NCBI RefSeq assembly: GCF_000816105.1
Contig: NZ_CP007140.1
Coordinates: 496,001-560,000, forward strand
Length of the DNA stretch: 64,000 nt
Source: Thermococcus guaymasensis DSM 11113
GTDB taxonomy: Archaea > Methanobacteriota_B > Thermococci > Thermococcales > Thermococcaceae
Direction of reading: 5' to 3'
In this document: positions 10,558 through 28,990 of the stretch, piece after piece
Layout of the letters: each line of letters starts with the position of its first letter
How positions within the stretch are numbered: the stretch's first letter is position 1
The notes under the pieces: generated by a model
The model's database searches: none
Told to the model about the DNA's origin: nothing
What the model saw: only the letters and a program-made list of their open reading frames with translations
Translations under genes and position numbers: made by a program

Positions 10558-12018
10558 TCAATCCCTCATCAGCGGAGTCAGGTCTGCCAGGTGGCTCAGC
10601 TCTTCTGGTATCTCTTTGCGCGTCGCTATCTCCCTGAAGGCGAGGGCGCTCGGCCTCAGGTACCTCTTCTTGGTCTCGAAGTCAACGTGGACGAGTCCAA
10701 AGCGCATCCTGAATCCCTGGGCCCACTCGTAGTTGTCTGTCAGCGACCAGTGCAGGTAGCCCCTCACGTCAGCCCCGGCCTCCATGGCGCTGTGGACTGC
10801 TTTGAGGTGGCTCACGAGGTAGTAGGGCCTGTACCTGTCGGCCGCATCGGCGATGCCGTTCTCTGTAATCATCATCGGCAGTCCGTAAATCCTGTGGAGG
10901 TCTCTGAGGATGTTTTCAAGACCCTCAGGGTAAATCTCCCATCCAAAGTCGCTCGCTGGCCGTCCTGACTTCGCAAAGCCGCCCCTCTCACACATGTAGC
11001 CGTATCCTGGAGGCACCTCTATGGAGCCGTTGTTCATTCTGTACGCAACCCTCGTGTAGTAGTTGACCCCTATCCAGTCGAGTTTGCCCTTCATGTCTGG
11101 TCTCTCACCAAGCAAACCGGAAGAGCCGGAGTGAACTGCGGTCACAAACTCGTAGTGACGTTTCCTTATCTCCTTCACGATATCCTCGGCTTCCTCGTTG
11201 AGGGCATCGTGCCACACGAACGAGTAGATTAACCCAACAGGGGCCTTGGAGTGCTCCTTTATGACGTCATACGCTCTTGCGTGGGCCTGCGCCATGTTCC
11301 TGGCTGCCTTCGTCGAGCTCTCAAAGCTCAGGTAGCCCGGAGGGAAGCCGGAGTTCGGCCTCGTGTAGCCCTGCTCATAGACGACGTTCGGCTCGTTCAT
11401 GGTGCTCCACATGTCAACGAGGTCGTTGAGGTGGTATGCTACAAAGGCCGCGAACTTCACGAACTCGACGACGCTCCTCTCGTCGAGCCACCCGCTGGGA
11501 GCCCTGTCAGGGCCGAGCCTCCTCACGGCTATCGGGTCGTGGAGCCAGAGCGGGAGGGGCCAGTGGTAGAGGTTGAGGATGAAAACCTTTCCCCTCCCCT
11601 TCCAGTCCGAGTAGATTTCCCTGTAGTGCTCAAGCGCCTTCATGTCGGCCAGCTTTTCCATCTCCTCGATGGCCCTCTCAGGAACGTCAACAGCGACTAT
11701 GTTGCCGTCCTCGTCCTTCTCAATGTCCACCTTGACGTCAAAGGTGGGCTTGGGGAAGAGCCTCGCCCACTCTATGCCTCCCCTTATTGCTTCCATCCCA
11801 AGTCCTTCAGCGATGTCGTGGTCTTGCTTGTATAAATGCCAGTAGGCAGGGCCGTTCTCGGGCAGGTGACCGCTGACCAGGCCTGAGAATATGTTCTCAG
11901 TATCGTGAACCCAGACCCACCAGTCGCTGTTGGGAACCTCGCTTCCTTCAAGCCCCATCTCAAACTGGAACCCTGACCATGAATAGCCAAAAAGAAAGTC
12001 CTTGGGAAACTTCCACAA
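10558..12018 (-). CDS. celB: Beta-glucosidase, glycoside hydrolase family 1
   Basis: This 486-residue intracellular GH1 enzyme opens MWKFPKDFLFGYSWSGFQFEMG, very close to P. furiosus CelB as I remember it. Acid/base Glu209 lies in STMNEPN and nucleophile Glu386 in ITENGIA. It should release glucose from imported beta-1,3 and beta-1,4 gluco-oligosaccharides. The start is a TTG at 12016-12018 with GGAGGTG six bases upstream, just after the cbtF stop. Compared with the remembered P. furiosus protein there is an extra loop of about 14 residues (SGSSGLLGERPDMKG) before KLDWIGVNYYTR; Sulfolobus homologues are also longer there. It is the last gene of the cbt operon. Confidence 0.9.
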   Translation of the reverse strand: MWKFPKDFLFGYSWSGFQFEMGLEGSEVPNSDWWVWVHDTENIFSGLVSGHLPENGPAYWHLYKQDHDIAEGLGMEAIRGGIEWARLFPKPTFDVKVDIEKDEDGNIVAVDVPERAIEEMEKLADMKALEHYREIYSDWKGRGKVFILNLYHWPLPLWLHDPIAVRRLGPDRAPSGWLDERSVVEFVKFAAFVAYHLNDLVDMWSTMNEPNVVYEQGYTRPNSGFPPGYLSFESSTKAARNMAQAHARAYDVIKEHSKAPVGLIYSFVWHDALNEEAEDIVKEIRKRHYEFVTAVHSGSSGLLGERPDMKGKLDWIGVNYYTRVAYRMNNGSIEVPPGYGYMCERGGFAKSGRPASDFGWEIYPEGLENILRDLHRIYGLPMMITENGIADAADRYRPYYLVSHLKAVHSAMEAGADVRGYLHWSLTDNYEWAQGFRMRFGLVHVDFETKKRYLRPSALAFREIATRKEIPEELSHLADLTPLMRD

Positions 12019-12021
12019 CGC

Positions 12022-12840
12022 TCACACCTCCTCAAAGTCCTCCCATCTACGGTATATCGTCGGAACGCTCGCGATCAGCGTCTTGGTGTACTCATCCTTC
12101 GGGTTGTCTATGACCTCCTCCGGGGTTCCCTCCTCGACTATCCTGCCCCTGTGCATGATGAATATCCTGTCAGAGATGAAGTAGGACAGGCCTATGTCGT
12201 GGGAGATAAAGATTATCGAGCTCCCTATCTCCTTCCTGAGCTTGTCAAAGAGCTCCATTATCTTTCCGCGTGTTGAAACGTCGAGCATCGAGACGGCCTC
12301 GTCAGCTATGAGGAGCTTCGGCTTGAGTATCCAGTTCCTCGATATCATAACCCTCTGCAGCTGTCCGCCGCTGAGCTGGTGGGGGTACTTGCCGAGAATT
12401 TCTCCCGGGTTAAGTCCAACCGCCCTGAGAGACTCCTCCTTCAGCTTAATGCCCTCTTCGGAGTTAGGGTCAATTCCCCTGAGCTCAAGGGCCTGGTTCA
12501 GGACTCTATCGACCTTATAGAAGGCGTTGAAGCTCCCCATCGGGTTCTGGAAGATGGCGTGGACGTTCCTCCAGTACTCCTTAAGGTCTTCCTTGCTCTT
12601 CAGCTCGTTCCAGATGTCCTTTCCGTTGAAGATCACATTTCCAGATGTCGGGGGTAGGAGTCTCAGGATTATCTTGCCCAAGGTGGTCTTTCCGGAACCG
12701 CTCTGGCCGATGAGGGATATTATCTCACCCTCCTTTACGGTGAACGAGACGTCATCTACCGCCCGCACTTCGATTTTGTGAAGGAACCCTGAGGTAAAAA
12801 CCTTAGTCACGTGGTCGCACACGAGTATTTCCCTGCTCAT
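12022..12840 (-). CDS. cbtF: Oligosaccharide/oligopeptide-type ABC transporter ATPase (CbtF-like)
   Basis: The 272-residue ATPase has Walker A GQSGSGKTT, signature LSGGQLQRVMISR, Walker B LLIADEAVSMLD and the switch FISHDIG. It belongs to the Opp/Dpp class that in Thermococcales imports beta-gluco-oligosaccharides as well as peptides. Unlike CbtD it lacks the C-terminal cysteine-containing oligo_HPY segment. ATG at 12838-12840 overlaps the cbtD stop (ATGA). Upstream in-frame alternatives lie inside cbtD and lack a clear ribosome site. Confidence 0.85.
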   Translation of the reverse strand: MSREILVCDHVTKVFTSGFLHKIEVRAVDDVSFTVKEGEIISLIGQSGSGKTTLGKIILRLLPPTSGNVIFNGKDIWNELKSKEDLKEYWRNVHAIFQNPMGSFNAFYKVDRVLNQALELRGIDPNSEEGIKLKEESLRAVGLNPGEILGKYPHQLSGGQLQRVMISRNWILKPKLLIADEAVSMLDVSTRGKIMELFDKLRKEIGSSIIFISHDIGLSYFISDRIFIMHRGRIVEEGTPEEVIDNPKDEYTKTLIASVPTIYRRWEDFEEV

Positions 12841-13859
12841 TGACCTCCCCTCCCTTGGTGGAGCCAGCACGCAACCTGTCTGCCCGGCTTGACCTCAACA
12901 AAGGCCGGCTCTTTCTCCCCGCAGACGTCCATGGCATATGGACACCTTGGATGGAAGCGGCACCCCTTCGGCGGGTCGATGAGGTTCGGCGGCTGTCCAG
13001 GGATGTATGATATGCCCTTCTCTCTCCCCTCTGGCTCAATAGAAGCCACGGACTTTATCAGGCCGTCAGTGTACGGGTGGAGCGGCTCCCAGATTATCGA
13101 GTCGGTGTCCCCGACCTCCACTATCTTGCCCGCGTACATGACGGCGATCCTGTTGGCGATCTGCCTGACGGTCGAGATGTCGTGGGTGATGAAGATTATA
13201 CTGTCAACGAAGCCGAGCTTCCTGAGCTGGAGCAGGGACTTGAGGACTATCTTCTGCGTCGTGACGTCGAGGGCTGAAGTCGGCTCGTCAACCACAAGAA
13301 CCTCAGGGCTTAACAGTGTGGCCATTGCCAGAACGGCCCTCTGCCTCATTCCACCGCTGAGCTGGAAGGGGTAGAGGTCAACTACGTAGTCGGGAAGGTC
13401 AAGTTCCTTTAGCCTCTCCTTCGCTATCTCAACTGCCCTGCTCATCGTTACGTCCTTTTTATGGGAGCGGAGAACGTCGTAGGCGATTTTCTTGATCTTT
13501 ATCGTCGGCATGAGTGCGTTTAGAGCGTCCTGCGGGACGTACGCTATGTGCTTACCCCAGATGGTGCTCTTAACCTCATCCTTGCTCTTGAACTGGGTTA
13601 TCCGGAACTTCCGGCCATCTCTAGACACGAGCTCAACTTCCCCGCCGATGTATTCAAGTGGGGGGACTATGTTCATCATCATTACCTTAGCGAGGGTTGA
13701 CTTCCCGCAGCCGCTCTCGCCCACGAGACCTACTATGTCACCTTTGTACACCTCAAGGCTCACGCCGTCAACCGCCTTCACCTGGTATTCAGTGGTGCCT
13801 TTAAGCTGTCTGTAGTAGGCCCTCACATCCTTCAGGATAAGCCTTGGTTCGTTGGCCAT
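12837..13859 (-). CDS. cbtD: Oligosaccharide/oligopeptide-type ABC transporter ATPase (CbtD-like)
   Basis: The 340-residue ATPase has Walker A GESGCGKST, signature LSGGMRQRAVLA, Walker B VLVVDEPTSALD, and the oligo_HPY C-terminal extension with GCRFHPRCPYAMDVCGEKEP. It pairs with CbtF to power import through CbtB and CbtC. I chose ATG 13859 (MANEPRL) because GAGGTG lies six bases upstream; a GTG at 13868 overlaps that site. It follows cbtC by ten bases. Confidence 0.85.
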   Translation of the reverse strand: MANEPRLILKDVRAYYRQLKGTTEYQVKAVDGVSLEVYKGDIVGLVGESGCGKSTLAKVMMMNIVPPLEYIGGEVELVSRDGRKFRITQFKSKDEVKSTIWGKHIAYVPQDALNALMPTIKIKKIAYDVLRSHKKDVTMSRAVEIAKERLKELDLPDYVVDLYPFQLSGGMRQRAVLAMATLLSPEVLVVDEPTSALDVTTQKIVLKSLLQLRKLGFVDSIIFITHDISTVRQIANRIAVMYAGKIVEVGDTDSIIWEPLHPYTDGLIKSVASIEPEGREKGISYIPGQPPNLIDPPKGCRFHPRCPYAMDVCGEKEPAFVEVKPGRQVACWLHQGRGGQ

Positions 13860-13869
13860 CGCGCTCACC

Positions 13870-14718
13870 TCACATCTCCCTCAGCCTTGGATTGAAGACC
13901 TGCTCTATTCCAGTAGCTATGAAGAGCAGCGACGTTGACAAGGCCACGAGGAGGATTCCCGGCGGTATGAAGACCCACCACTCGCCGAGGAAGTACGCCT
14001 GCGTCACTGCCGCGAAATAGAGCATCTTTCCGAGGGTCATTATCTTGAGCGGTGTGAGTCCGAGGATGCTCAGGCCGACCTCTGCATTGATGCCTATGTT
14101 CATGAAGTTCACGAAGGAGACGAGGGTGTAGGTCGTGACGTACGGCAGGAGGTCAAAGAAGGCTATCTTCAGATCACCGTAGCCGCTCATCCTTGAGAAG
14201 TACACGAACTCTCTTTCTCTGAGGCTGAGGAACTGCGCCCTTATTGCCCTCGCGAACGATGGCCAGGCTGTGAGCGAGATGATAGCCGCCACGAGAGTCA
14301 AGCCACTGTTCTCAAGGCCGAGGTACGTGGCTATGATTATTGCCAGCAGGACGTTCGGGATCGTTATGACAACGTTGGTGAACGCCATAAGACTCTCGTC
14401 TATAAGGCCACCCTTTATGCCCGCTATCATGCCTATAGTCAACCCTATCAGCACGGAGAATATTCCTGTAAGGGCACCAACGTAGAGGGAGTTTCTTATT
14501 CCAACCATAACTTCAGCGAGAATGTCCCTTCCGAACCTGTCGGTTCCCAGGAGGTACTCCATGCTCGGGGGGGTTGAGGGCGGCCCTGCGGGCTTAAATG
14601 GATCAACGGGATAAATATAAGCTCCAAAGAGAGCAAGGAGTAGTTCAAAGGTGAGTATGCTGAAGCCGATAACGAACCTCTTGTTCCTGAAGAGAAGGTA
14701 AAACACTTCCTTGTTCAT
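13870..14718 (-). CDS. cbtC: ABC transporter permease (CbtC-like, DppC family)
   Basis: The 282-residue permease has six hydrophobic helices, with the first at residues 15-35. The DppC-type start YLLGTDRFGRDILAEVMVGIRNSLYVGALTG is diagnostic, and the EAA-type cytoplasmic loop is at SFARAIRAQFLSLREREFVYFSRMSG. It forms a heterodimeric channel with CbtB. Nine bases separate it from cbtB. Confidence 0.85.
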   Translation of the reverse strand: MNKEVFYLLFRNKRFVIGFSILTFELLLALFGAYIYPVDPFKPAGPPSTPPSMEYLLGTDRFGRDILAEVMVGIRNSLYVGALTGIFSVLIGLTIGMIAGIKGGLIDESLMAFTNVVITIPNVLLAIIIATYLGLENSGLTLVAAIISLTAWPSFARAIRAQFLSLREREFVYFSRMSGYGDLKIAFFDLLPYVTTYTLVSFVNFMNIGINAEVGLSILGLTPLKIMTLGKMLYFAAVTQAYFLGEWWVFIPPGILLVALSTSLLFIATGIEQVFNPRLREM

Positions 14719-14727
14719 GCTACCACC

Positions 14728-15738
14728 TCATTCACTCCGCTGTCCAAGCCTTATCCTCGGGTCTATGAGCACGTAGATGAACTCCACAATGAAGTTGGCC
14801 AGGAGCAGGGTGCCTATGAGTATCAGAAAGATTCCCTGTATCATGGGATAGTCCCTGGAACCGAGTGCCCTCGCGAGGAGTATTCCCATTCCCTGGTAGT
14901 TGAAGAGCTGTTCGGTGATTATCTGGCCCGCCATGACCGTACCGAGCTGGATTGCTATCCCAGTAACCTGCGGAAGAAGGGAGTTCCTGAGGACGTAGCG
15001 GAATATGATCTCGTTGTCAACGTTGAGCATCTCTGAGAAGGTAACGTATGTGGATCCAAGCTCCATCGCGGCCAAGACCCTCATTCCAATTATCCAACCC
15101 CCAGTACTGGTAATCGCTATTGAGAGGAATGGGAGAATGTAGTGGTGCAGATAGCTCTTTATGAACGTCCAGCTGAGTGATGGAGTGAGTGTTGGGTCGT
15201 AGGCTGAACCTGAGGGGAACCAGCCAAGCTTGATTGCGAAGACGTAGATGAGCACCATTGCCATCCAGTAGTAGGGAATCTGGGACACTATTATTCCAGT
15301 TGATACAGTGACCTTCTCGAAGAGAGTGCCCCTTCTGTATGCGGCCCTTGCACCGAGGTAGTTGCCTATGGCCCAGGACACGAGCGTCGCGGGGACGAGG
15401 AGTAGGAGCGTCCAGGGCAGGTGCCACGATATCAACTTCGTAACTGACTGTCCATAAGACGTGATGGAAGTCCCAAGATTCCCGCTGAAAGCGTTCTTGA
15501 GGAAGTCGATGTACTGCTGCCAGAGCGGCTTATTAAGCCCAAACTCCTCTACGAGCCTCCTCTGATAGTCATTGAGAAGCTCAGGCGAGAGCGAACCCTG
15601 AGACATTCCGGCGATTATCTGCTGCACAGGGTTTCCTGGCGCAATTCTCGGGAGGAAAAACGCTATGCTCACAGCTACGAAGTACGTGACAAGTAAAAAA
15701 GAAAGTTTGATGAGGAAGTACCTGTATATCGGCCTCAT
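14728..15738 (-). CDS. cbtB: ABC transporter permease (CbtB-like, DppB family)
   Basis: The 336-residue DppB-family permease opens with a membrane helix (LSFLLVTYFVAVSIAFFLPRIAPGNPV). The usual large outer loop follows, with NKPLWQQYIDFLKNAFSGNLGTSI, and then five more helices. The coupling loop is at STYVTFSEMLNVDNEIIFRYVLRNSLLPQVTGIAI. It lies 12 bases after cbtA and partners CbtC. Confidence 0.85.
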   Translation of the reverse strand: MRPIYRYFLIKLSFLLVTYFVAVSIAFFLPRIAPGNPVQQIIAGMSQGSLSPELLNDYQRRLVEEFGLNKPLWQQYIDFLKNAFSGNLGTSITSYGQSVTKLISWHLPWTLLLLVPATLVSWAIGNYLGARAAYRRGTLFEKVTVSTGIIVSQIPYYWMAMVLIYVFAIKLGWFPSGSAYDPTLTPSLSWTFIKSYLHHYILPFLSIAITSTGGWIIGMRVLAAMELGSTYVTFSEMLNVDNEIIFRYVLRNSLLPQVTGIAIQLGTVMAGQIITEQLFNYQGMGILLARALGSRDYPMIQGIFLILIGTLLLANFIVEFIYVLIDPRIRLGQRSE

Positions 15739-15750: not shown

Positions 15751-17805
15751 TTACCCCGAAAACTTCCTTGCCCCGATGATGATCACTACCACTAGAGCAA
15801 TTATCCCAACCAAACCAACAATGAATCTTGAGCTCTTTGAAGGAGTCCCTGATTCTGGAGTCGTTGTAGTGGTAATCTCAGTTCCTGTAAGGGACGTCGA
15901 AGCGGTTTCGGTAGTGGTCGTCACTTCAGGCACCTCGATCTCGCCACCGATCTGCTTCATGAGTTCTTCGTTTGGTATGAGAATACCGCCCTCGCTCTTG
16001 GGCTTGGCCCACTCAGGCGCCTTCACAGGCTCCCCAGCCTTTGAAAGACCAAAGAGAACCCAGAGCGGCAGAGAATACTCCCTGTACGGCGCAACCTCAG
16101 TCCACCACGGATTATCCTCATTCGGCCATCCATGCCAGTACTTCTCACTGTAAGCATACCACTGGACCGAATACGCTATAGGAATAGCAGGCATTTCCTC
16201 GTAAAGGAGCTTCTGAATCTCCGTGTAGTACTTCATTCTCTCCTCATAGGTCGTGGCGTTGGCAGCCTTTATGAGGAGATCCAGCGCCTCAGAATTGTTG
16301 TAGAAGCCCCAGTTGCCGGTTGGAGGGGTAAGCCTCGGGTCAAGAACGTACCTGTAAACATCCCACGGATGGTAGAACGAGGGTGAGCTGGTCCACCCAA
16401 GGGCAAGGGTGTAGCTTCCACCGTTTATCATTCCCCAGTAGGCACCATAGTCGACGGGATAAGCCGCGGCGTTTATTCCTATCTCCTGGAGATCGGTCGC
16501 TATGAGGTCGGCGGCTATCATCCAGTCAGTCCACCCACTCGGGACAATAATTTGAAGCTCAACTTTCTCCCCGTTTGGAGCCTCCAGGAAACCGTCTCCA
16601 TCAACGTCCTTGTAACCAGCCCCAGCAAGTATCTGCTTCGCCTTCTCCTTGTCAGTTGGGATTCTACCGAGTTCATTGCCCCAATACTCCTTCGCTAGAG
16701 TCGTGTTAAGCCAAACGCGGTAGTGGGGGAGAACCTCAAAGACGAGAGAGGCTGAGGGCTGTGGCGAATAGTCGTAGAAAGCCTTGTGGAGAACTTCATT
16801 GTAATCTATGGCATAAGCAATGGCCTTCCTCAGGTTTGGATCCTGCAGGACTTTCTCCTTGTGATTGAAGTACAACATGACAAAGGTTCCTGGCCTGAAG
16901 TAAGGCTTGTCCTTGTAGAAGGTGCCTATCCCCTTGAAGTTGCCAACGTTCGGGATGAATATTCCCGACCAGTCAACGTTGCCCTGCCTGAGGTCAAGGA
17001 GAGCCTGCTCGTTGCTCAGGTAAATCCTGTGAACCACGTACTTCGGTGCAGGGAGACCGAATATGTCCTTGCCCCACCAGTCGTCTATGCGCTTGTAGAC
17101 AATCCTCAGTTCATCAAAGTAGTCGAGCTCGTACGGGCCCGAAACGACCTGCGGGAGGTCTATCTTCACGTCTCCACTGTCGGTAGAAACGATGTCGTCG
17201 CACGCTCCGCCACAGTTCCTCCAGTTGACTATGGCGTCACCGACCTTCTCATAGACCTGCTCGATTATGTGCTTGGGGGCCGGAGCAAACTGGAGGGCAT
17301 AGAGGAGGAACATCGGGAGGTTCTTTTCCTTCCCGATAGTGAACTGGACGGTGTGCTCATCGATTGCCTTAACGTCTCCAATATAGGGTTCAGAACCGGC
17401 CGCGGGGCCCGTCCCAACTTTGAGGGAGAGCTTGTAGGTGTACTCAACGTCATAAGCGGTTATTGGCTGTCCATCACTCCACTTTGCCTCTGGCCTGAGG
17501 TGAACGATGAGGGTCGTGTCGTTCACAAGCTCAAAGCTTTCGCCTATAATAGGAACCCACGAGTCAAGACCTGCTATGTACTGGAACAGCGGGAGGTACA
17601 TGAATCCACCCGTAGTGTACGTTCCCCACGTCTGGGACGGGGAGAACAGGTTCCACGTGGATGCGGGGCTCCACTGCGCTCCGGTGACAAAAACAGTGTC
17701 TTCCCTTGGAAGGGACCCCTGGGCACTTACGGGAGACAGTATTGTAGTGAAAACTAAAAGAGCCACAAAACCTGCAATTATCCACTTACTTTTTGACGTC
17801 TCCAT
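15751..17805 (-). CDS. cbtA: Beta-gluco-oligosaccharide-binding protein of ABC importer (CbtA-like)
   Basis: The 684-residue protein starts with a signal peptide (WIIAGFVALLVFTTILSPVSA). A family 5 (Opp/Dpp) substrate-binding domain follows, with VNDTTLIVHLRPEAKWSDGQPITAYDVEYTY and YNEVLHKAFYDYSPQPSASLVFEVLPHY. Near residues 630-660 a Thr-rich linker leads to a C-terminal membrane anchor (FIVGLVGIIALVVVIIIGARKF). This matches P. furiosus CbtA, which binds cellobiose and related beta-glucans. ATG 17805 (METSKSKW) is preceded by GGGGGT; in-frame ATGs at 17820 and 17823 are alternatives. It heads the cbtABCDF-celB operon. Confidence 0.85.
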   Translation of the reverse strand: METSKSKWIIAGFVALLVFTTILSPVSAQGSLPREDTVFVTGAQWSPASTWNLFSPSQTWGTYTTGGFMYLPLFQYIAGLDSWVPIIGESFELVNDTTLIVHLRPEAKWSDGQPITAYDVEYTYKLSLKVGTGPAAGSEPYIGDVKAIDEHTVQFTIGKEKNLPMFLLYALQFAPAPKHIIEQVYEKVGDAIVNWRNCGGACDDIVSTDSGDVKIDLPQVVSGPYELDYFDELRIVYKRIDDWWGKDIFGLPAPKYVVHRIYLSNEQALLDLRQGNVDWSGIFIPNVGNFKGIGTFYKDKPYFRPGTFVMLYFNHKEKVLQDPNLRKAIAYAIDYNEVLHKAFYDYSPQPSASLVFEVLPHYRVWLNTTLAKEYWGNELGRIPTDKEKAKQILAGAGYKDVDGDGFLEAPNGEKVELQIIVPSGWTDWMIAADLIATDLQEIGINAAAYPVDYGAYWGMINGGSYTLALGWTSSPSFYHPWDVYRYVLDPRLTPPTGNWGFYNNSEALDLLIKAANATTYEERMKYYTEIQKLLYEEMPAIPIAYSVQWYAYSEKYWHGWPNEDNPWWTEVAPYREYSLPLWVLFGLSKAGEPVKAPEWAKPKSEGGILIPNEELMKQIGGEIEVPEVTTTTETASTSLTGTEITTTTTPESGTPSKSSRFIVGLVGIIALVVVIIIGARKFSG

Positions 17806-17858
17806 TGTGCTTACCCCCATCATATTAACAGGTTCAATCTAGGTATGGGGGCTAACAA

Positions 17859-17883: not shown

Positions 17884-18052
17884 ATTTTGGACCCCAAATT
17901 ATAGCTCAGAACAGATCTTATATATGAGGCTATAGCGGAAATCATTATTTAAGGGGAAGAAATTCCATATTATTTATGCCCTCCTGTCTATGTTGAGCTT
18001 TATTGTTTTCACGGAGACAATTGTTTTCAGAATTATAACCAGCAGAACATTC

Positions 18053-18080
18053 TATAATTTTGAAAAAAGCTTATATATAA
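18053..18080 (+). promoter_or_regulatory. Promoter of the rightward beta-glucan operon with shared element
   Basis: CTTATATATAA (18070-18080) is a strong TATA box directly preceded by TATAATTTTGAAAAAAG (18053-18069), the mirror of the element before cbtA. It places the transcript start near 18100, only about 10 bases before the GTG at 18110, and rules out in-frame starts upstream. The rest of the 304-base gap has one more TATA-like sequence near 17928 and no other clear feature. Confidence 0.6.
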
Positions 18081-18109
18081 TGGCACAGATTTATAAGTCG
18101 GTGGTACTC

Positions 18110-20158
18110 GTGACCGGCCCCTGGAAAAAGTTGGTGGGAATCTTCGTAGTGCTGGCAGTTTTTAGCGGCATGGTGGCTGCCGCCAGCCTGCAGGAAATAA
18201 GGGACTTGGCCTCAACGGCGCAGGAGGGCGACGTTCAGTTTACTTGGTGGGACAACGAAACACTGGTAAACCTTAGCGACGGAAGAACCGCCTGGATGCA
18301 GACCAACTTCTGGAACATCAAGAATGGAACCGGCGAAGTCTTCATGAGATACATAAAGCAGAGCGATGAATTCGCCTTCTACACCAATCTCACCAACGTC
18401 CAGACAAAGTATGGTGGAATAGCTTGGGCGACGCCAAACGTTATCTTCGCGGGAAGGCTACCCAAAGCGTGGTGGGGGAACAAGCCGCCCGTTGGAGGAT
18501 ACGGCTTCTTCGACCTCCCGATACCCGCCGGTGACATCAAGAACTACAGCACCATACTAGCCAAGGCCGACTTTGAACTCGCCAAGGGAGAAAACACCCT
18601 CGTTAGGCCGGGCTTCATGATGTGGTTTGAGAACTCAGCCGGCCAGCCGCTCGCAGAAGTTTACGTCCCGTTCTTTGACGACTACAACGGAATCGTTGGT
18701 GCCCAGTATCCTCCCGCCGAGGTTGGAAACATAACTGCCACCGTACACATAAATGGAGAAGCCAAGAACGTTACTTTCAGAGTTCAGAAGGCCTGGAACT
18801 GGAACAACTTTGCCTTTGACTTCATACCTGAGGAGCCACTTGCTACAACCTCAGGCGAGGTTATCGTTGATTTAAGGCCGATCGTTGACAAAGTGGTCGA
18901 GGAGATAATCGCCGATGAGTACTCTGACTACACTGAAGATGATATAACCTGGACATCCCTGTCGTTTGCAACCTACGCCGGAAGCGAAGGAGACAGCTTC
19001 GAGCTTGGGTGGATACTCCACGACGCCAGAATCGTCCAGCCCCTCCCTCCAGAGCTTGAGAAGATAAAGGAGTTTGCCTCAAAGGCTGAGGAAGGTGATA
19101 TCCAGTTCACCTGGTGGGACCAGTTCCTTGAGGAGGCGATCCAGCTGAGCGATGGAAGAACCGTCTGGATGCAGACCAACTTCTGGAACATCGTGGATGG
19201 ACAGGGAGAAGTCTTTATGAGGTTCGCCAAATCAACCGAGGAGTTCGGCTTCTATGTTGACCTCGACAACGTCCAGACCCAGTGGGGCGGAAAAGGCTGG
19301 GCAACACCAGAGGTAATCTTCGCCGGAAGGGCACCCGCCAGCTGGTGGGGGAACAAGTCACCCGTCGGAGGATACGGCTTCTTCGACCTCCCGATACCCG
19401 CCGGTGACATCTCCAAGTACGAGCACATCTGGGTGAAGGCCAACTATGAGGTTGCAAAAACCAAAGGACTGGTAAGGTTCGGTATAAACCTCTGGGTTGA
19501 GGACACCAGCGGCAACCCAATAGGAGAAATCTACGTCCCGTTCTTCGATGACTTCGGCGGCATCCTAGGAGACAGAAAGGAGATAGGAACCGTAACATCC
19601 ACTGTCATTGTCAATGGCGAGGAGAAGACAATGGACTTCACCGTCCAGAGGGCCCTCTCCGGAGGCGGATGGGCGGTTCTCCTCTTCATGCCTCAGGAGC
19701 CTCTCCCTGAGAGTGCGGAAGTCAAGATTGATGTTAAGCCCTTTATGGACAAGGTTGTTGAACAGCTTTCAGACTACTTTGGAATGCCTGTTGACCAGCA
19801 GGTCTGGTGCTCAATGTCCATCGGCTCTTACAGCGGTGGAGAGGATCCAGCTCAGGGGTTTGAATACGGCTGGATAGTCCATGATGTCAGGATAGACTCT
19901 GTAGAAGCCGCACCGGTCACAGAGACCACTACGACGACCACCACGACAACCACTACCAAGACAAGTACCACGTCCTCAAGCACAACCACAACAACCACTA
20001 CTACCACAACAACCACAAAGACAACAACCACTACGACAACCACCACAAGCTCAGAGCAAACCACAACAACCAGCGAGAAAGAGGAGGGCGGTATCTGCGG
20101 CCCAGGAATCATCATAGGGCTTGCAGCACTCCCGCTTATCCTCAGAAGGAAACGCTGA
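18110..20158 (+). CDS. Surface-anchored protein with two GH12-like beta-sandwich domains and CGP-CTERM tail
   Basis: The 682-residue protein has a signal peptide (residues 1-25), two homologous domains (about 26-318 and 319-607) sharing QFTWWD, DGRT-WMQTNFWNI, WWGNK-PVGGYGFFDLPIPAGDI and a -YGWI-HD-RI end, a Thr-rich linker (about 610-655), and a CGP-CTERM sorting tail with Cys663, a hydrophobic stretch and RRKR. The C-terminal part of each domain resembles family 12 glucanases, but where GH12 has the nucleophile Glu in EIMIW these have Gly (168 and 458). The acid/base Glu position is also changed. A surface glucan-binding role is inferred. GTG 18110 is chosen because GGTGGT precedes it and the TATA box overlaps earlier starts. 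Confidence 0.7.
   Translation: MTGPWKKLVGIFVVLAVFSGMVAAASLQEIRDLASTAQEGDVQFTWWDNETLVNLSDGRTAWMQTNFWNIKNGTGEVFMRYIKQSDEFAFYTNLTNVQTKYGGIAWATPNVIFAGRLPKAWWGNKPPVGGYGFFDLPIPAGDIKNYSTILAKADFELAKGENTLVRPGFMMWFENSAGQPLAEVYVPFFDDYNGIVGAQYPPAEVGNITATVHINGEAKNVTFRVQKAWNWNNFAFDFIPEEPLATTSGEVIVDLRPIVDKVVEEIIADEYSDYTEDDITWTSLSFATYAGSEGDSFELGWILHDARIVQPLPPELEKIKEFASKAEEGDIQFTWWDQFLEEAIQLSDGRTVWMQTNFWNIVDGQGEVFMRFAKSTEEFGFYVDLDNVQTQWGGKGWATPEVIFAGRAPASWWGNKSPVGGYGFFDLPIPAGDISKYEHIWVKANYEVAKTKGLVRFGINLWVEDTSGNPIGEIYVPFFDDFGGILGDRKEIGTVTSTVIVNGEEKTMDFTVQRALSGGGWAVLLFMPQEPLPESAEVKIDVKPFMDKVVEQLSDYFGMPVDQQVWCSMSIGSYSGGEDPAQGFEYGWIVHDVRIDSVEAAPVTETTTTTTTTTTTKTSTTSSSTTTTTTTTTTTTKTTTTTTTTTSSEQTTTTSEKEEGGICGPGIIIGLAALPLILRRKR
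19922..20065 (+). repeat. ACN-codon low-complexity tract (Thr linker)
   Basis: About 48 mostly threonine codons (ACA/ACC/ACG mixed) encode the flexible, probably glycosylated linker before the sorting tail. Similar shorter tracts occur in the two downstream lipoproteins and in CbtA. It is coding low complexity, not a CRISPR or satellite. Confidence 0.85.
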
Positions 20159-20205
20159 ACTTTCCTTTTTTAATATTTCATGCCTCATGTGTGGAGGGAT
20201 TAAAC

Positions 20206-21708
20206 GTGAAGAATAAACTTGGAGCCTCTTTAACGCTCATACTCATCATCCTTATCGCGAGCACCCTTGGTTGTGTAGATGAGAAAAGTGCTGAACAAAC
20301 TGGAAACACGACAATTCAATCCCCAGTTTCCACCACGTCTACTACCTCCTCTCCCACTACAACAACGTCCACCACATCCACTGCAGAAACAGCTACCTCC
20401 GCGATGAAGAAGCCAAAAATGACGTTTCCTAAGGGTTATTCTGAGTTTGGAGGCTGGAAAGATATGAAAGTTGAAGGTACGGGTTACTTTAGGATTGAAA
20501 AGATAAACGGGGTTTTCTGGCTGGTTGACCCGGAGGGCTACATCTTCATCTCCAAGGGCGTGAACGCGGTAAACTACCTCGGAGACCACTCACCGAAGCT
20601 CGGCTATTCGCCATACTACATAAACGTCATTAAAAAATACGGGGGCGCCGAGGGCTGGATAAACGTTACCACCCAAAGGTTCGTCGAATGGGGTTTCAAC
20701 ACCATAGGCGCGTGGTCTTCGCCGGAGCTCCACGAGTACCTGCCCTACACGCTCCTCCTCGACATAGGCTCCCAGTACGGCTTCAACTGGGAGCACGGGA
20801 CGATACCGGACATATTCAGCCCCAACTTTGAGGAGTACGTGGAAAAGGCGGTCTCGTTCAAGGTCAAGCCCGTTAAGGACGACCCCCTCTTAATCGGCTA
20901 CTTCACGGACAACGAGCTCCGCTGGGGCCCGGACTGGAGATCCAGCAACCACCTCCTCGACGATTTCATCAAACTGCCCGCCGATGCCCCGGGCAAGAAG
21001 GTGGCGGTGGATGTTTTAAAGGAAGTCTTCAACGGGAGTATAGAGACCATAAACGAAGTACTCGGAACGAACTATACATCCTTTGATGAGCTCCTCGGTT
21101 ACACTGGTGACCTACCCTCAACCGGGCCGTTCAACGAGGCGCGGAGGGAGTTCGTGAGGAGATACGCGGAGAGGTACTTCAGTGTGGTCGTTGGCGCGAT
21201 AAGGAAGGTGGACCCTAACCACCTGATCCTCGGGCCGAGATTCGCGGTCTCACCGTTCATAAGGCCGCCAGAGATCGTGTTTGAGGTAGCTGGAAAGTAC
21301 GTTGACGTGATTTCGCTCAACCTTTACAACTTCCAGATAGCTCCGAAAGAGTACCTCAACAGGATATACGAGCTCAGCGGAAAGCCAATAATGATAACGG
21401 AGTTCTCGTTCAGGGCAAGGGATTCGGGCCTTCCAAACACCGTCGGGGCAGGTATCACCGTCGACACGCAGAAAGAACGCGCCAAATACACCCGCAGGTT
21501 CATAACGAGCTTCATGGAGCTTCCATATGCCGTCGGCTACCACTGGTTCAAGTGGTCCGACGAGCCCAAGGAGGGCCGCTTCGATGGGGAGAACAGCAAC
21601 TACGGGCTGGTCAACAACGAGGACGAGCCCTATACAGAGATGGTTGAGATGTTCAAATCTTTAAACAGAGAAATAGAAGTCATCCATATGAAAGGGGGCG
21701 AAAGCTGA
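20206..21708 (+). CDS. Secreted lipoprotein glycoside hydrolase, clan GH-A (agarase/GH50-like)
   Basis: The 500-residue protein has a lipoprotein signal (LILIILIASTLGC, Cys23), a Ser/Thr-rich linker to about residue 65, and a TIM-barrel-like catalytic region. FRIEKINGVFWLVDPEGYIFISKGVN resembles the start of agarase-like GH50 proteins. Candidate catalytic residues are Glu237 (YFTDNELRWG) and Glu399 (IMITEFSF), with WFKWSD near the end. The exact family and substrate are uncertain; context suggests beta-glucans rather than agar. GTG 20206 follows GGAGGGA by six bases; an in-frame GTG at 20191 has no such site. The stop overlaps the next ATG by one base (TGATG). Confidence 0.72.
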   Translation: MKNKLGASLTLILIILIASTLGCVDEKSAEQTGNTTIQSPVSTTSTTSSPTTTTSTTSTAETATSAMKKPKMTFPKGYSEFGGWKDMKVEGTGYFRIEKINGVFWLVDPEGYIFISKGVNAVNYLGDHSPKLGYSPYYINVIKKYGGAEGWINVTTQRFVEWGFNTIGAWSSPELHEYLPYTLLLDIGSQYGFNWEHGTIPDIFSPNFEEYVEKAVSFKVKPVKDDPLLIGYFTDNELRWGPDWRSSNHLLDDFIKLPADAPGKKVAVDVLKEVFNGSIETINEVLGTNYTSFDELLGYTGDLPSTGPFNEARREFVRRYAERYFSVVVGAIRKVDPNHLILGPRFAVSPFIRPPEIVFEVAGKYVDVISLNLYNFQIAPKEYLNRIYELSGKPIMITEFSFRARDSGLPNTVGAGITVDTQKERAKYTRRFITSFMELPYAVGYHWFKWSDEPKEGRFDGENSNYGLVNNEDEPYTEMVEMFKSLNREIEVIHMKGGES

Positions 21709-23237
21709 TGCTTCCTGAAGGATTTTTGTGGGGTGTCTCTGAATCAGGCTTTCAGTTTGAAATGGGAGACAGGCTGAGGAGGAACATAGACACGAATACT
21801 GACTGGTGGCACTGGGTCAGGGACAAGTCCAACATAGAGAAAGAGCTCGTGAGCGGAGACCTGCCAGAGGAGGGCATCAACTACTACGAGCTCTACAGCA
21901 AAGACCACGAGCTCGCCGCTTCCATCGGCCTGAACGCCTACCGCATCGGGGTCGAGTGGAGCAGGATTTTCCCGTGGCCTACAACACACGTGGACGTCAG
22001 CTACACCGTTGACGAGTCCTATGGTCTCATAAAGGAGGTAAAGATTAAGAAAAGCACTATAGAGGAGCTCGACGAGCTGGCCAACCAGAAAGCGGTTCTC
22101 CACTATAGGAGGATTATCTCAGACCTCCGGGGGAAGGGCCTCAAGGTAATCCTCAACCTAAACCACTTCACCCTCCCCTACTGGCTCCACGACCCGATTG
22201 AGTCGAGGGAGAGAGCCCTCTCCAACCGGCGCAACGGATGGATAAACCCGATGACAGTGGTAGAGTTCACGAAGTTCGCCGCGTACATAGCCCACCGCTT
22301 CGGCGATTTGGTTGACATGTGGAGCACCTTCAACGAGCCCATGGTCGTGGCCGAGCTCGGATACCTCGCCCCGTACTCTGGCTTCCCGCCGGGAGTCCTC
22401 AGCCCCGAGGGCGCGAAGCTCGCGATAATCCATCAGCTCAACGCCCACGCCATGGCCTATCGGGCAATCAAAAAGTTCGACAGAGAAAAGGCCGACCCTG
22501 ATTCCAAGGAGAACGCGAGCGTCGGAATAATATACAACAACATCGGCGTCGCCCAGCCTCTCGACCCGAATGACCCCCAGGACGTGAAGGCCGCAGAAAA
22601 CGACAACTTCTTCCACACGGGACTGTTCTTCGAGGCAATCCACCGCGGAAAGCTCAACGTAGACTTTGACGGAGAGAACTTCGTGAAGGTAAAGTGCCTT
22701 AAAGGGAACGACTGGATAGGACTTAACTACTACACCAGAGAGGTCGTCACATACAGGGAGCCGCCCTACCCGAGCATCCCGCTCATAACGTTCAAAGGCG
22801 TCCCCGGCTACGGCTACGCCTGCAGGCCAGGCTTCACGTCAAAGGCTGGAAACCCAGTTAGCGATATGGGATGGGAGGTCTATCCAGAGGGGCTTTACGA
22901 CTCAATAAAGGCCGCCTCGGAGTATGGAGTCCCAATATACGTCACGGAAAACGGTCTGGCCGATTCAAAGGACGTCCTGAGGCCGAACTACATAGCGAGT
23001 CACGTGGCCGTCATTGAGAGAGCGATTGAAGATGGCCACGACATCAGAGGCTACTTCTACTGGGCCCTGACGGACAACTACGAGTGGTCCCTTGGATTCA
23101 GGATGAGGTTCGGCCTCTATGAGGTCAACCTCCTCACGAAGGAGAGAAAACCGCGGAGGAAGAGCCTAGACGTTTACACGTCAATAGTGAAAAACAACGG
23201 GCTTCCCGAAAGCCTGAAGAGAGACCTGGGGGTGTGA
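21708..23237 (+). CDS. bmn: Family 1 glycosidase, beta-mannosidase-like
   Basis: The 509-residue GH1 enzyme has acid/base Glu210 (STFNEPM) and nucleophile Glu414 (VTENGLA). The N-terminus (GFLWGVSESGFQFEMGDRLRRNIDTNTDWWHWVRDKSNIEKELVSGDLPEEGIN, with breaks for other residues elsewhere) is nearly the P. furiosus beta-mannosidase PF1208 as I remember it; in that species the gene also lies beside cbtA. There is no signal peptide, so it acts inside the cell on imported beta-linked disaccharides. It differs clearly from CelB of the same island, so the two are paralogues with different specificity. Coupled to the upstream lipoprotein gene; four bases before the antitoxin gene. Confidence 0.85.
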   Translation: MLPEGFLWGVSESGFQFEMGDRLRRNIDTNTDWWHWVRDKSNIEKELVSGDLPEEGINYYELYSKDHELAASIGLNAYRIGVEWSRIFPWPTTHVDVSYTVDESYGLIKEVKIKKSTIEELDELANQKAVLHYRRIISDLRGKGLKVILNLNHFTLPYWLHDPIESRERALSNRRNGWINPMTVVEFTKFAAYIAHRFGDLVDMWSTFNEPMVVAELGYLAPYSGFPPGVLSPEGAKLAIIHQLNAHAMAYRAIKKFDREKADPDSKENASVGIIYNNIGVAQPLDPNDPQDVKAAENDNFFHTGLFFEAIHRGKLNVDFDGENFVKVKCLKGNDWIGLNYYTREVVTYREPPYPSIPLITFKGVPGYGYACRPGFTSKAGNPVSDMGWEVYPEGLYDSIKAASEYGVPIYVTENGLADSKDVLRPNYIASHVAVIERAIEDGHDIRGYFYWALTDNYEWSLGFRMRFGLYEVNLLTKERKPRRKSLDVYTSIVKNNGLPESLKRDLGV

Positions 23238-23983: not shown

Positions 23984-24994
23984 ATGAAGAATGGACATAT
24001 GCTTATTGCGCTTATGTTAGTGGGGATTATTTTCGTGAGCGGATGCATTGGAGGGAACACGGCCAATACCGCAACAACTTCCAGTAGCGGAGAAAGCACG
24101 CCCGCTATGACCACTACTCCAACAACCACGACAACCACAACGACGACCACCGCTGAAAAAACAACAACCTCATCCACTACCACCACAACATCAGCCACGC
24201 AAGTTCCAGAGCTCATAGAGACCCCTGGAGGGAAATGGAAGCTCCTGTGGCACGACGAGTTCGATGGGCCCGAAGTGAACGAGGACTACTGGACCTTTGA
24301 GAAGGGCAACGGAATTGCCTACGGGGTTCCTGGGTGGGGCAACGGCGAGCTTGAATACTACACCAAAAACAACACGAGGATAGAGAACGGAACTCTTATT
24401 ATTGAGGCAAAGAAAGAAACCATCACCGACATGAACGAGGGGACTTTCCTCTATACCTCCTCAAGGCTCAAAACAGAGGGGAAGGTGGAGTTTGAACCGC
24501 CCGTCAGGGTGGAAGCAAGGATAAAGCTCCCTAAGGGCAAGGGGCTCTGGCCCGCGTTCTGGATGCTTGGAAGCAACATCCGCGAGATCGGCTGGCCTCA
24601 GTGCGGTGAGATAGACATAATGGAGTTCATTGGCCACGAGCTGAGAACCGTGCACGGCACAGTCCACGGGCCGGGCTACTCTGGCTCCAAGGGCATAACC
24701 GAGGCCTACACCCTACAGGAGGGCGTTCCGGACTTCACGGAGGACTTCCATGTCTTTGCCATAGAGTGGTTCCCCGATAAGATAGTCTGGTACGTGGACG
24801 GGGAGCAGTACCATACTGTTACCAAGAAGCAGGTAGAGGCAATGGGCAAGGACTGGGTGTTTGACAAGCCCTTCTACATAATCCTCAACCTCGCGGTGGG
24901 CGGCTACTGGCCGGGCCGTCCCGATGCGACCACGAAGTTCCCTGCCCAGATGTACGTGGACTACGTCAGGGTTTACAGGCTCGTTGAGGGTTAA
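23984..24994 (+). CDS. lamA: Laminarinase, endo-beta-1,3-glucanase family 16, lipoprotein
   Basis: The 336-residue protein has a lipobox (LVGIIFVSGC, Cys21), a Thr-rich linker (about residues 30-72) and a complete GH16 domain. Catalytic Glu209 and Glu214 lie in CGEIDIMEF; Trp-rich substrate-cleft motifs include GLWPAFWMLG and FYIILNLAVGGYWPG. It should cut laminarin-type beta-1,3-glucans at the cell surface, releasing oligosaccharides for the Cbt importer. ATG 23984 is chosen because GGGGTGA precedes it and a lipoprotein signal starts there; the open frame extends upstream inside the toxin gene. Confidence 0.93.
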   Translation: MKNGHMLIALMLVGIIFVSGCIGGNTANTATTSSSGESTPAMTTTPTTTTTTTTTTAEKTTTSSTTTTTSATQVPELIETPGGKWKLLWHDEFDGPEVNEDYWTFEKGNGIAYGVPGWGNGELEYYTKNNTRIENGTLIIEAKKETITDMNEGTFLYTSSRLKTEGKVEFEPPVRVEARIKLPKGKGLWPAFWMLGSNIREIGWPQCGEIDIMEFIGHELRTVHGTVHGPGYSGSKGITEAYTLQEGVPDFTEDFHVFAIEWFPDKIVWYVDGEQYHTVTKKQVEAMGKDWVFDKPFYIILNLAVGGYWPGRPDATTKFPAQMYVDYVRVYRLVEG

Positions 24995-24996: not shown

Positions 24997-25050
24997 TTCC
25001 TGTTTTCCCTTCCTATTCCTGTTTTATTCCTGATCCAAACCTGATCCAAA
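24997..25050 (+). repeat. Short direct repeats in the lamA-phosphorylase gap
   Basis: The 68-base gap holds two copies of TTCCTGTTTT (24997-25006 and 25016-25025), then a perfect tandem pair of CCTGATCCAAA (25029-25039 and 25040-25050) just before the GAGGGG ribosome site. There is no TATA box. A partial terminator or RNA-level control is possible. Confidence 0.45.
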
Positions 25051-25062
25051 GAGGGGATGTAG

Positions 25063-28000
25063 ATGAAGGCATACGGCTTCGATAGGAAAGGTAGGTTTTT
25101 CATAGAGGACTACAACCGCTCCAAGCCTTTCGCAAGCTTCCTGCCCGGCATAGCTGGGAAAAAGGGCATACCAATGTGGGTGTTCTACGTCAACAGGGCA
25201 CAGTGCATAAGCTCCTTCGGCGTGCAGGACAAAGACCACCCGATAATGGAGTTCGACTCCGCCCTCAGGGCATACCAGAGAGTAAGGACACAGGGCTTCA
25301 GGACTTTCATAAAACTGCCCGATGAGGGAGTCTTTTACGAGCCATTCGCCCCCAATGAAAACGTCACCCAGAGGATGTACATAGGCAGGAACGAGCTTGA
25401 GATTGAGGAGCTCAACGAGGAGCTCGGCCTTAAGATAAACGTCCTCTACTACACCATCCCGGGGGAGAGAATCCCCGCACTCGTCAGGAAGGTCACGATA
25501 AAGAACGTCTCGTCAGCCCCCAAGAAGCTTGAAGTGCTCGACGGCATGCCCGCCGTTGTCCCCTACGGCGTTAACGACTACGTCTTGAAGCACATGCTGA
25601 CGACGATAAAGGCCTGGATGGAAGTGCACAACCTCGAAAAGGGGATGCCATTCTTCAAGCTCAAGTCCTCAACGGAGGACGTCCCCAAGGTGGAGGAGCT
25701 GGCCGAGGGTACCTTCTACATCTCCCTCGTGAACAGGGGCGGAAAGAGCGAGCTCGTGAAGCCTATAGTCGACCCAGACCTCGTCTTCGGCACTGACACA
25801 TCCATGCTCAGGCCAGAAAACTTCATGGGCAAACCTTTGAGCGAGCTTACCGGGGCAAAACAGGTAACCTTCAACAAGCTCCCCTCTGCCTTCACGCCCC
25901 TTGAGCTCATCCTTGAGCCCGGCGAGGAAGTCAAGATTTACTCCGTAATCGGCTATGTGCCACACATAGCGATGCTTGAGGGCTACGCGGAGAAGTTCGC
26001 CAATGAGAAATACCTTGAGGGGAAATACACCGAGGGCAACGCCATTATCGAGGAGATTGTCAAGGACATATCCACCAAGACTTCATCGAAGCTTTTCGAC
26101 GAGTACGCCAAGCAGTGCTACCTCGACAACGTGTTGAGGGGAGGCTACCCGCTCGTCCTTGAGGACGAAAAGCCCTTCGTCTACTATCTCTACCTGAGGA
26201 AGCACGGCGACCAGGAGAGGGACTACAACTACTTCGTCATCACGCCGGAGTACTATTCCACCGGAAACGGCAACTACAGGGACGTTAACCAGAACAGGAG
26301 GGATAACGTCTTCTTCCACCCTGAGATAGGGAGCTACGACATAAAGTTCTTTGTGAACCTCATCCAGGCCGACGGCTACAACCCGCTCGTCATCAACGGC
26401 GTGAAGTACCACTTCAAGGCCAGCGATACGAGCTTTCTCGGAGAGCTCGTTGACAAGCCCGAGCCACTCATCGAGTTCCTCAAGGAGCCATTCACGCCGG
26501 GAAGGCTGATAATGTTCCTCGAAGATCAGGAAATCAAGCTAAAAGTGCCTGAAGAGGAGTTCCTCAGAGGGGTTCTCAAGCACTCCGAGGAGGAAATAGA
26601 TGCAGTCCACGGCGAGGGCTACTGGTGCGACCACTGGACATACAACCTCGACCTGATAGAGAGCTACCTCGGAATATACCCCGACAGAAAGAAGGAGCTC
26701 CTCTTTGAGGACTACGGCTACACTTACTACGACAACGCTATGGTCGTGCTCCCGAGAAGCAAGAGGTACGTGCTCGACAAGGGCAGGGTGAGACAGTACA
26801 ACTCCCTCGTGGAGGACGAGGAGAAGAAGGCGCTGATAGAGTCAAGGAAGGAATACAAGCACGTTATGAGGGCAGGTAAAGGAAGGGGCGAGATATACAG
26901 GACGAACCTCGCCACCAAGCTCCTCAATTTAGCTCTCGTCAAGTTCGCGACGCTCGACCCGGAGGGAATTGGAATAGAGATGGAGGCAGGCAAGCCGGGG
27001 TGGTACGACGCGCTCAACGGGCTTCCCGGCCTCTTCGGCTCCTCCGTGGGAGAAAGCGCCGAGCTTGTTAGGCTCTTTGACTTCCTAATCGGAGCCTTTG
27101 AGGAGTTCCCGGAGAAGGAGCTGAGGGTTCCGGTCGAGGTCTGGGAACTTTACAGTGAGGAGCTCAGGCTCGTGAAGGAATACCTCCAGAGGGACGACGG
27201 GGACAGAGACCACTGGCTCTGGGACAAACTCTCAGCACTCCGCGAGGAGTACAGGGAGAAAGTGAAGCTCGGCTTTAACGGAGAGGAAGTGAAGGTAAAA
27301 GCTGGAGAGCTCGTTGAGGGTCTGAGAGTGCTCCGCGACAAGCTGTGGGCCGGCCTCAGGAAGGCGGCGGAAGAAAACAACGGCTTACTGCCAATGTACT
27401 TCTACTATGAGCCCGTTGAATACGAAGTCGTGGAAAACGGCGAGGTAAGGGTTCTGAAGTTCGAGAGGAAGAGAATGCCACTCTTCCTTGAGGGCGTCGT
27501 CAAGCAGTTCAAGGTCTTCAAGGACAGGGAGCTCTTGAGGGAAGTCTACCGGAAGGTCAAGGAGAGCGACCTCTACGACAGGAAGCTGGGGATGTACAAG
27601 CTCAACGCCTCCCTGAAAGACCAGCCGATAGAAATCGGCAGGGCGAGGGCCTTCACACCGGGCTGGCTTGAAAACGAGTCAATCTGGCTCCACATGGAGT
27701 ACAAGTACATGCTCGAACTCATAAGGAGAGGGCTTTACGATGAGTTCTACTCGGACTTCAAGAACGTCATCGTTGCATTCCTCGACCCAGAGGTCTATGG
27801 AAGGAGCCCCCTCGAAAACTCCTCCTTTATAGTCAGCAGTGCCTATCCGGACGAGTCCCTGCACGGCACGGGCTTCGTTACGAGGCTAACTGGAGCAAAC
27901 GCAGAGTTCCTCAGCATATGGAAGAACATGTTCGCAGGAGAAAAGCCGTTCAGCACGGAAAACGGGGAACTCGTGCTCACGCTCAGCCCGGCCCTCCCAG

Positions 28001-28242
28001 GATGGCTGTTTGACGATGAAGGAAAGGTGAGCTTCAATTTCCTCGGAAGGTGCAGGGTCACCTACCACAACCCAGGCAAAAAGGACACGTGGAAGCTCGA
28101 CATGAGGGGGGCAAGGACAGTCCTTCACCTGAAGGGCAGAGAAACCATCGAGGTCGAGGGGAATAGGGTCAGGGGAGAGCTCGCCCAGATGGTCAGGGAA
28201 GGTAAGGTCGAGGCGATAGACGTTTACTTCCCTGCCAACTGA
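25063..28242 (+). CDS. Beta-glucan phosphorylase, GH94/GH149/GH161-like
   Basis: This 1059-residue protein without a signal peptide has the clan GH-Q phosphorylase layout: an N-terminal beta-sandwich, then an (alpha/alpha)6 catalytic region, then a small C-terminal beta domain. GNYRDVNQNRR (Asp407) corresponds to the YRDxxQ substrate motif of cellobiose phosphorylases, and KPGWYDALNGLPGLFGSS holds Asp649 as the probable general acid. The great length and the asparagine-rich motif point to the GH161/GH149 beta-1,3-oligoglucan phosphorylases rather than classic GH94. Location after laminarinase supports beta-1,3-glucan plus phosphate giving glucose-1-phosphate in the cytosol. GAGGGG precedes the ATG. 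Confidence 0.75.
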   Translation: MKAYGFDRKGRFFIEDYNRSKPFASFLPGIAGKKGIPMWVFYVNRAQCISSFGVQDKDHPIMEFDSALRAYQRVRTQGFRTFIKLPDEGVFYEPFAPNENVTQRMYIGRNELEIEELNEELGLKINVLYYTIPGERIPALVRKVTIKNVSSAPKKLEVLDGMPAVVPYGVNDYVLKHMLTTIKAWMEVHNLEKGMPFFKLKSSTEDVPKVEELAEGTFYISLVNRGGKSELVKPIVDPDLVFGTDTSMLRPENFMGKPLSELTGAKQVTFNKLPSAFTPLELILEPGEEVKIYSVIGYVPHIAMLEGYAEKFANEKYLEGKYTEGNAIIEEIVKDISTKTSSKLFDEYAKQCYLDNVLRGGYPLVLEDEKPFVYYLYLRKHGDQERDYNYFVITPEYYSTGNGNYRDVNQNRRDNVFFHPEIGSYDIKFFVNLIQADGYNPLVINGVKYHFKASDTSFLGELVDKPEPLIEFLKEPFTPGRLIMFLEDQEIKLKVPEEEFLRGVLKHSEEEIDAVHGEGYWCDHWTYNLDLIESYLGIYPDRKKELLFEDYGYTYYDNAMVVLPRSKRYVLDKGRVRQYNSLVEDEEKKALIESRKEYKHVMRAGKGRGEIYRTNLATKLLNLALVKFATLDPEGIGIEMEAGKPGWYDALNGLPGLFGSSVGESAELVRLFDFLIGAFEEFPEKELRVPVEVWELYSEELRLVKEYLQRDDGDRDHWLWDKLSALREEYREKVKLGFNGEEVKVKAGELVEGLRVLRDKLWAGLRKAAEENNGLLPMYFYYEPVEYEVVENGEVRVLKFERKRMPLFLEGVVKQFKVFKDRELLREVYRKVKESDLYDRKLGMYKLNASLKDQPIEIGRARAFTPGWLENESIWLHMEYKYMLELIRRGLYDEFYSDFKNVIVAFLDPEVYGRSPLENSSFIVSSAYPDESLHGTGFVTRLTGANAEFLSIWKNMFAGEKPFSTENGELVLTLSPALPGWLFDDEGKVSFNFLGRCRVTYHNPGKKDTWKLDMRGARTVLHLKGRETIEVEGNRVRGELAQMVREGKVEAIDVYFPAN

Positions 28243-28285
28243 ACCTTTTGTTTTTTAATTTGACCATTTTGAGGAGGTGCCGATT

Positions 28286-28990
28286 ATGAAGGTCGCCGTG
28301 ATAACCGGGGCATCCCGCGGTATAGGAGAGAGCATTGCGAGGGCCCTTGCCAAGGACGGCTATGCCCTTGCACTCGGTGCAAGGAGCGTTGACAGGTTGA
28401 AAAAAATCGCCCAAGAGCTTGCTCAGGAACACGGTGTTGAGGTGTTCTACCACCACCTCGACGTCTCAAAGCCTGAGAGCGTTGAAGAGTTCTCTAAGAA
28501 AGTCCTCGACCGCTTCGGGGACGTTGATGTCGTTGTCGCCAACGCCGGCCTGGGGCACTTTGGACGGCTTGAGGGGCTGACCGAAGAGCAGTTCCACGAG
28601 ATGATAGAGGTCAACATCCTCGGCGTCTGGAGGACGATAAAGGCCTTCCTCCAGAGCCTGAAGAGAACCGGCGGTGTGGCGCTCGTTGTGACCTCCGATG
28701 TATCGGCGAGGTTCATCCCCTACGGTGGGGGTTACGTCTCCACCAAGTGGGCGGCCAGGGCGCTAGTTAGGACTTTCCAGATTGAGAACCCTGATGTAAG
28801 GTTCTTTGAACTCAGGCCTGGTGCAGTTGACACCTACTTCGCGGGAAGTAAGCCAGGAAAGCCCAAGGAGCAGGGCTACCTGAAGCCGGAGGAGATAGCT
28901 GAAGCAGTCAGGTGCCTGCTTAGGCTCCCCAAGGACGTGAGGGTTGAGGAGTTTATGCTCCGCTCCATCTACCAGAAACCCGAATACTGA
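28286..28990 (+). CDS. adhA: Short-chain alcohol dehydrogenase AdhA
   Basis: This 234-residue SDR has the NAD(P)-binding glycine motif TGASRGIG, NAG (VANAGLG) and the catalytic Ser-Tyr-Lys set in TSDVSARFIPYGGGYVSTK. It is nearly the P. furiosus AdhA (PF0074) as I remember it; in that species adhA is co-transcribed in the celB-lamA locus. Its metabolic role there is unclear; reduction of carbonyls to dispose of reductant is a reasonable guess. ATG 28286 is used because GAGGAGGTG precedes it. It is the last gene of the rightward unit. Confidence 0.88.
   Translation: MKVAVITGASRGIGESIARALAKDGYALALGARSVDRLKKIAQELAQEHGVEVFYHHLDVSKPESVEEFSKKVLDRFGDVDVVVANAGLGHFGRLEGLTEEQFHEMIEVNILGVWRTIKAFLQSLKRTGGVALVVTSDVSARFIPYGGGYVSTKWAARALVRTFQIENPDVRFFELRPGAVDTYFAGSKPGKPKEQGYLKPEEIAEAVRCLLRLPKDVRVEEFMLRSIYQKPEY

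Follow-up and report, generated by a model that had tools for sequence, protein, structure and literature searches.

A hyperthermophilic archaeal member of the GH161 beta-1,3-glucan phosphorylase family in a beta-glucan island of Thermococcus guaymasensis

The open reading frame at 25063..28242 (+) of the window, as we call the whole stretch of 64,000 nucleotides of Thermococcus guaymasensis DSM 11113 analysed here, codes for a 1059-residue protein that is a member of glycoside hydrolase family GH161 and not of GH149 or GH94, as the sequence, profile and fold evidence agree. The product is very probably an inverting beta-1,3-glucan phosphorylase that operates in the cytosol and in the catabolic direction. 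The frame had been proposed in the initial annotation of this DNA and is a real one: it is preceded by a ribosome-binding-like sequence (GAGGGG), starts with ATG and runs intact through 1059 codons with no internal stop. No signal peptide was seen in the protein, in agreement with a cytosolic location. Its description as a giant was overstated, since about 1040-1100 amino acids is the usual size for GH161.

Among solved structures, the near-identical GH161 chains 9h8v/9qqk were the top matches (phmmer, 951 bits, residues 12-1054 aligned; identity to solved GH161 enzymes about 47%), while laminaribiose phosphorylase barely aligned with the window protein. The initial annotation had proposed GH161/GH149 and had named a cellobiose or cellodextrin phosphorylase subfamily as the best match that would contradict it; no such match came first, and sequence, profile and fold all chose GH161. 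In the NCBIfam search only the GH149 model NF058639 matched, and its 98 bits against a cut-off of 1150 bits led us to reject GH149 membership. Membership in GH94 was likewise rejected, as Pfam (GH94 included) gave no match to the protein up to E 10 and the GH94 profile PF17167 found none in the whole genome. A profile built from 37 homologues scored 1344 bits with GH161, 132 with GH149 and 33 with the GH94 laminaribiose phosphorylase. The AlphaFold model of the protein (mean pLDDT 89.2, the only low-confidence stretch being residues 645-650 around Asp649, with pLDDT <50) was placed by Foldseek closest to GH161 cryo-EM structures, with TM-scores of 0.93 (9gy9) and 0.91. GH149 came next (0.74), laminaribiose phosphorylase reached 0.69, and the phosphorylases of cellobiose and cellodextrin scored about 0.57 and about 0.55.

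Both aspartates singled out in the initial annotation, Asp407 in GNYRDVNQ and Asp649 in GWYDALNGLPG, are present and correctly numbered, and together with H877 and other residues they are invariant in 37 of 37 diverse GH161 homologues. Profile alignment pairs GNYRDVNQ with the GH149 donor-site motif GNWRDIFQN, placing the Asp407 codon (26281..26283, +) in a predicted donor (-1) subsite motif. The segment GWYDALNG is paired with PEWNDA of GH149 and ADWNDG of GH94, and because of this alignment Asp649 (codon 27007..27009, +) is assigned as the catalytic general acid of clan GH-Q. The same catalytic aspartate is thus shared, by alignment, with the clan members Pro_7066 (GH149, 6hq6) and laminaribiose phosphorylase (GH94, 6ggy), whereas the overall identity to 6hq6 and 6ggy in the fold comparison is 16%.

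The gene belongs to a beta-glucan island (10558-28990) in which the usual companions of GH161, beta-glucosidase and ABC transporter genes, are present. Its minus strand carries a CelB-like GH1 beta-glucosidase (10558..12018; NF041004, 835 bits; 3apg, 864 bits), an Opp-type ABC transporter of two ATPases and two permeases (12022..15738; Pfam ABC_tran and BPD_transp_1) and a solute-binding protein of the SBP_bac_5 type, the presumed binder of beta-gluco-oligosaccharides (15751..17823; PF00496, E 6.6e-61). On the plus strand follow a protein with two GH12-like domains and a CGP-CTERM surface anchor (17990..20158; weak match to endoglucanase 3o7o; TIGR04288), a GH50 agarase-like lipoprotein (20191..21708; 6xj9, 187 bits), a second GH1 beta-glycosidase with NEP and TENG motifs, putatively a cytosolic finishing enzyme (21708..23237; Pfam GH1), and a LamA orthologue, a lipoprotein-like GH16 endo-beta-1,3-glucanase predicted at the surface (23984..24994; EIDIME motif), whose true ATG is probably at 23984. 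Downstream of the GH161 gene, a short-chain alcohol dehydrogenase (SDR; 28286..28990, +; 3l77/3tn7, 460 bits) closes the island. The identity of LamA, proposed earlier, is confirmed by its best match to the solved endo-beta-1,3-glucanase 2vy0 (520 bits), and the CelB invoked with it does have a homologue here, the minus-strand GH1 gene, the LamA neighbour being the second GH1. The GH12-like anchored protein has three homologous copies in genomes G094 and G008 and fewer elsewhere. A small PIN-like open reading frame at 23464-23979 (PF01850, 18 bits, below cut-off) keeps its position across islands, yet is only 31-37% identical. No Thermococcales glycolytic motif (TGM) was found in the window, and alignment of the divergent promoter region showed no clear shared operator. 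The SDR is 89% identical to the one at the same position in G094, which is itself identical to PDB 3l77; we take 3l77 to be the SDR of T. sibiricus, and G094 to be T. sibiricus.

The linkage, chain-length limit and direction proposed for the window enzyme follow its characterised relatives. In phosphorolysis, the Paenibacillus polymyxa enzyme PapP accepts beta-1,3-gluco-oligosaccharides from three units upward and is inactive on laminaribiose and cellotriose, and TaCDP of the thermophile Thermosipho africanus, first reported as a cellodextrin phosphorylase, was shown to be of the same kind (PMC6484121). Given laminaritriose and cellotriose, both enzymes cleaved the beta-1,3 substrate alone, and laminaribiose was not phosphorolysed by the two GH161 enzymes assayed for it (PMC6484121). 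In the literature we found no GH161 of a hyperthermophilic archaeon that had been assayed.

By analogy, surface-anchored LamA would cut laminarin-type glucans into oligosaccharides, which the Opp-type transporter would import and from whose non-reducing ends the GH161 enzyme would, with phosphate, remove glucose units as alpha-glucose-1-phosphate. Because the assayed GH161 enzymes need at least three sugars, phosphorolysis should stop at laminaribiose, and the dimer would be left to hydrolysis by a GH1 enzyme; the earlier suggestion that laminari-oligosaccharides are partly phosphorolysed is in this way both supported and refined. Phosphoglucomutase would then convert glucose-1-phosphate to glucose-6-phosphate, and each phosphorolysed bond would spare one ADP-dependent glucokinase reaction. 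The genome contains two genes of the ADP-PFK/GK family and several of the phosphoglucomutase/phosphomannomutase family, and about 2 kb separates one of the latter from a gene of the former; therefore, glucose-1-phosphate can plausibly enter glycolysis without glucokinase. As the island also has GH12-like and GH50-like enzymes, beta-1,4 or agar-derived oligosaccharides may share its transporter.

Comparative genomics revealed GH161 in 4 of the 61 genomes of the genus, and a catalytic GH16 (E below 1e-150, the remaining matches being threonine-rich linkers) in all four of these and in none of the other 57. The naive probability of this coincidence among the 61 genomes is 1.9e-6, a value that ignores relatedness and stems from counts that are not phylogenetically independent. 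Across the family, GH161 was matched in 7 of 94 genomes, all within two genera, which agrees with the statement in the initial annotation that P. furiosus lacks a counterpart in its lam locus. P. furiosus LamA (2vy0) and CelB (3apg) are homologous to the GH16 and GH1 enzymes of the window; the difference is the GH161, found in no family genome outside the two genera. Two family copies are partial, that of G092 being N-terminally truncated and that of G097 cut by a contig end. The gene set and order of the island are conserved in the congeners G007, G008 and G043 and in G094, with the two island halves of G043 arranged differently relative to each other. In G092 (L119/L120, G092:C5 about 1148186) the island is decayed: 177 residues are missing from the N-terminus of the binding protein and 398 from that of GH161, and only a few bases separate the two shortened genes, which suggests either a faulty assembly or the loss of roughly 10 kb. 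In a Thermotogales relative (57%), a GH16 gene is found close upstream of GH161.

These data make it improbable that the protein works for the island's GH12-like cellulases, as a phosphorylase of cellodextrins or of mixed-linkage beta-glucans. The double-domain GH12-like protein is indeed encoded in the same island, the PDB labels 9h8v as 'Cellobiose phosphorylase', and TaCDP was initially classed as a cellodextrin phosphorylase (PMC6484121). However, 9h8v is almost identical in sequence to the GH161 entry 9qqk, beta-1,3 enzymes rank first by both fold and sequence, TaCDP and PapP are inactive on cellotriose (PMC6484121), LamA is the immediate neighbour, and GH161 and GH16 occur in the very same genomes of the genus. 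Still less likely is a mainly synthetic enzyme that would extend beta-1,3-glucan from glucose-1-phosphate to form a reserve or a solute. Catalysis by GH161 runs in both directions, and in vitro PapP and TaCDP build long beta-1,3-glucans (PMC6484121), but the genes grouped with it encode an importer, beta-glucosidases and a secreted endoglucanase, which is a catabolic layout. A GH149-type or GH94-type enzyme that also accepts disaccharides, to which the weak but significant GH149 profile match and the weak activity of TaCDP with glucose as acceptor (PMC6484121) could point, is the least credible, as the GH149 score is far below its cut-off and the whole genome yielded neither a GH94 nor a GH149 above cut-off.

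The catabolic beta-1,3-glucan phosphorylase preferred here shares full-length homology, fold and catalytic residues with PapP, TaCDP and the entries 9gy9, 9h8v and 9qqk, and shares with PapP and TaCDP the nearby GH1, GH16 and ABC transporter genes. It differs from them in its hyperthermophilic archaeal host, in its identity of about 47% to the PDB enzymes, in the Opp type of its transporter and in its downstream SDR partner. A 'saccharolytic gene island' of T. sibiricus for cellulose, laminarin and agar (Mardanov et al. 2009) is cited in PMC6981617 and PMC4574382. The G094 island has the same genes, order and chromosomal site between cbf5 and rpl14e; it carries three GH12-like genes where the window has a single one, and the GH161 proteins are 82% identical. 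The novelty is further limited because an archaeal GH161 was already reported in 2022 in the haloarchaeon Halapricum hydrolyticum HArc-curdl7 (PMC9726719). Haloarchaeal GH161 (locus L063) is likewise linked to growth on beta-1,3-glucan, but it is 44% identical and lies in another branch with Chloroflexota, which points to an independent acquisition. No description of a GH161 in Thermococcales was found in the literature searched, outside of which most subscription journals lie. The window enzyme thus adds a hyperthermophilic archaeal member to an established family, and the island around it has been reported before from T. sibiricus.

The island interrupts the cbf5-rpl14e interval in the window and in G094; in relatives with both genes in view, the two are about 0.2-1.3 kb apart, and in G007 and G008 they are close together and the island is elsewhere. 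In the GH161 tree the archaeal hyperthermophile copies adjoin those of Caloramator and a Thermotogales bacterium, and the haloarchaeal and Heimdallarchaeal copies fall elsewhere. Three Desulfurococcaceae-type copies (contigs L004-L006, 72-81% identical to the window protein) are nested within the Thermococcales copies, beside G094, and a single Thermococcales clade was rejected (p-AU 0.015), indicating from the sequences that GH161 has passed between archaeal phyla. Misbinned Thermococcus contigs are an unlikely source of the crenarchaeal copies, because the contigs and the genes have a GC content of 36-42%, where the window gene has 55%, and because the only neighbours matching Thermococcus island genes are the SDR of L004 and, in L005, a short piece of a GH1 gene. 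The L004 SDR, downstream of GH161, is frame-disrupted. In a tentative history, which we consider possible though somewhat doubtful, a hyperthermophilic archaeal branch of GH161 would have begun with a transfer from thermophilic bacteria, spread through the Thermococcales within a relocating laminarin island and from there reached Desulfurococcaceae. In an Omnitrophota contig (L040, 1-21192), GH161 lies within an open frame that spans 7064 residues or more, is free of stops and of N, and also carries HMGL-like, APH and VWA domains.

Because glycolysis in Thermococcales relies on ADP-dependent kinases and has a low ATP yield, breaking down beta-glucans by phosphorolysis would spare one phosphoryl transfer for each bond. 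The window gene may also offer a highly heat-stable catalyst for the synthesis or cleavage of beta-1,3-glucans, and its assignment to GH161 corrects the naming of a family often labelled cellobiose phosphorylase. Pdsh_03720 of Pyrodictium delaneyi, annotated as a 'cellobiose phosphorylase' (PMC5556600), and an Aeropyrum relative (BAN90220.1) may belong to GH161 and not to GH94. If the tentative history outlined above holds, several archaeal 'cellobiose phosphorylase' genes, Pdsh_03720 among them, would really encode beta-1,3-glucan phosphorylases.
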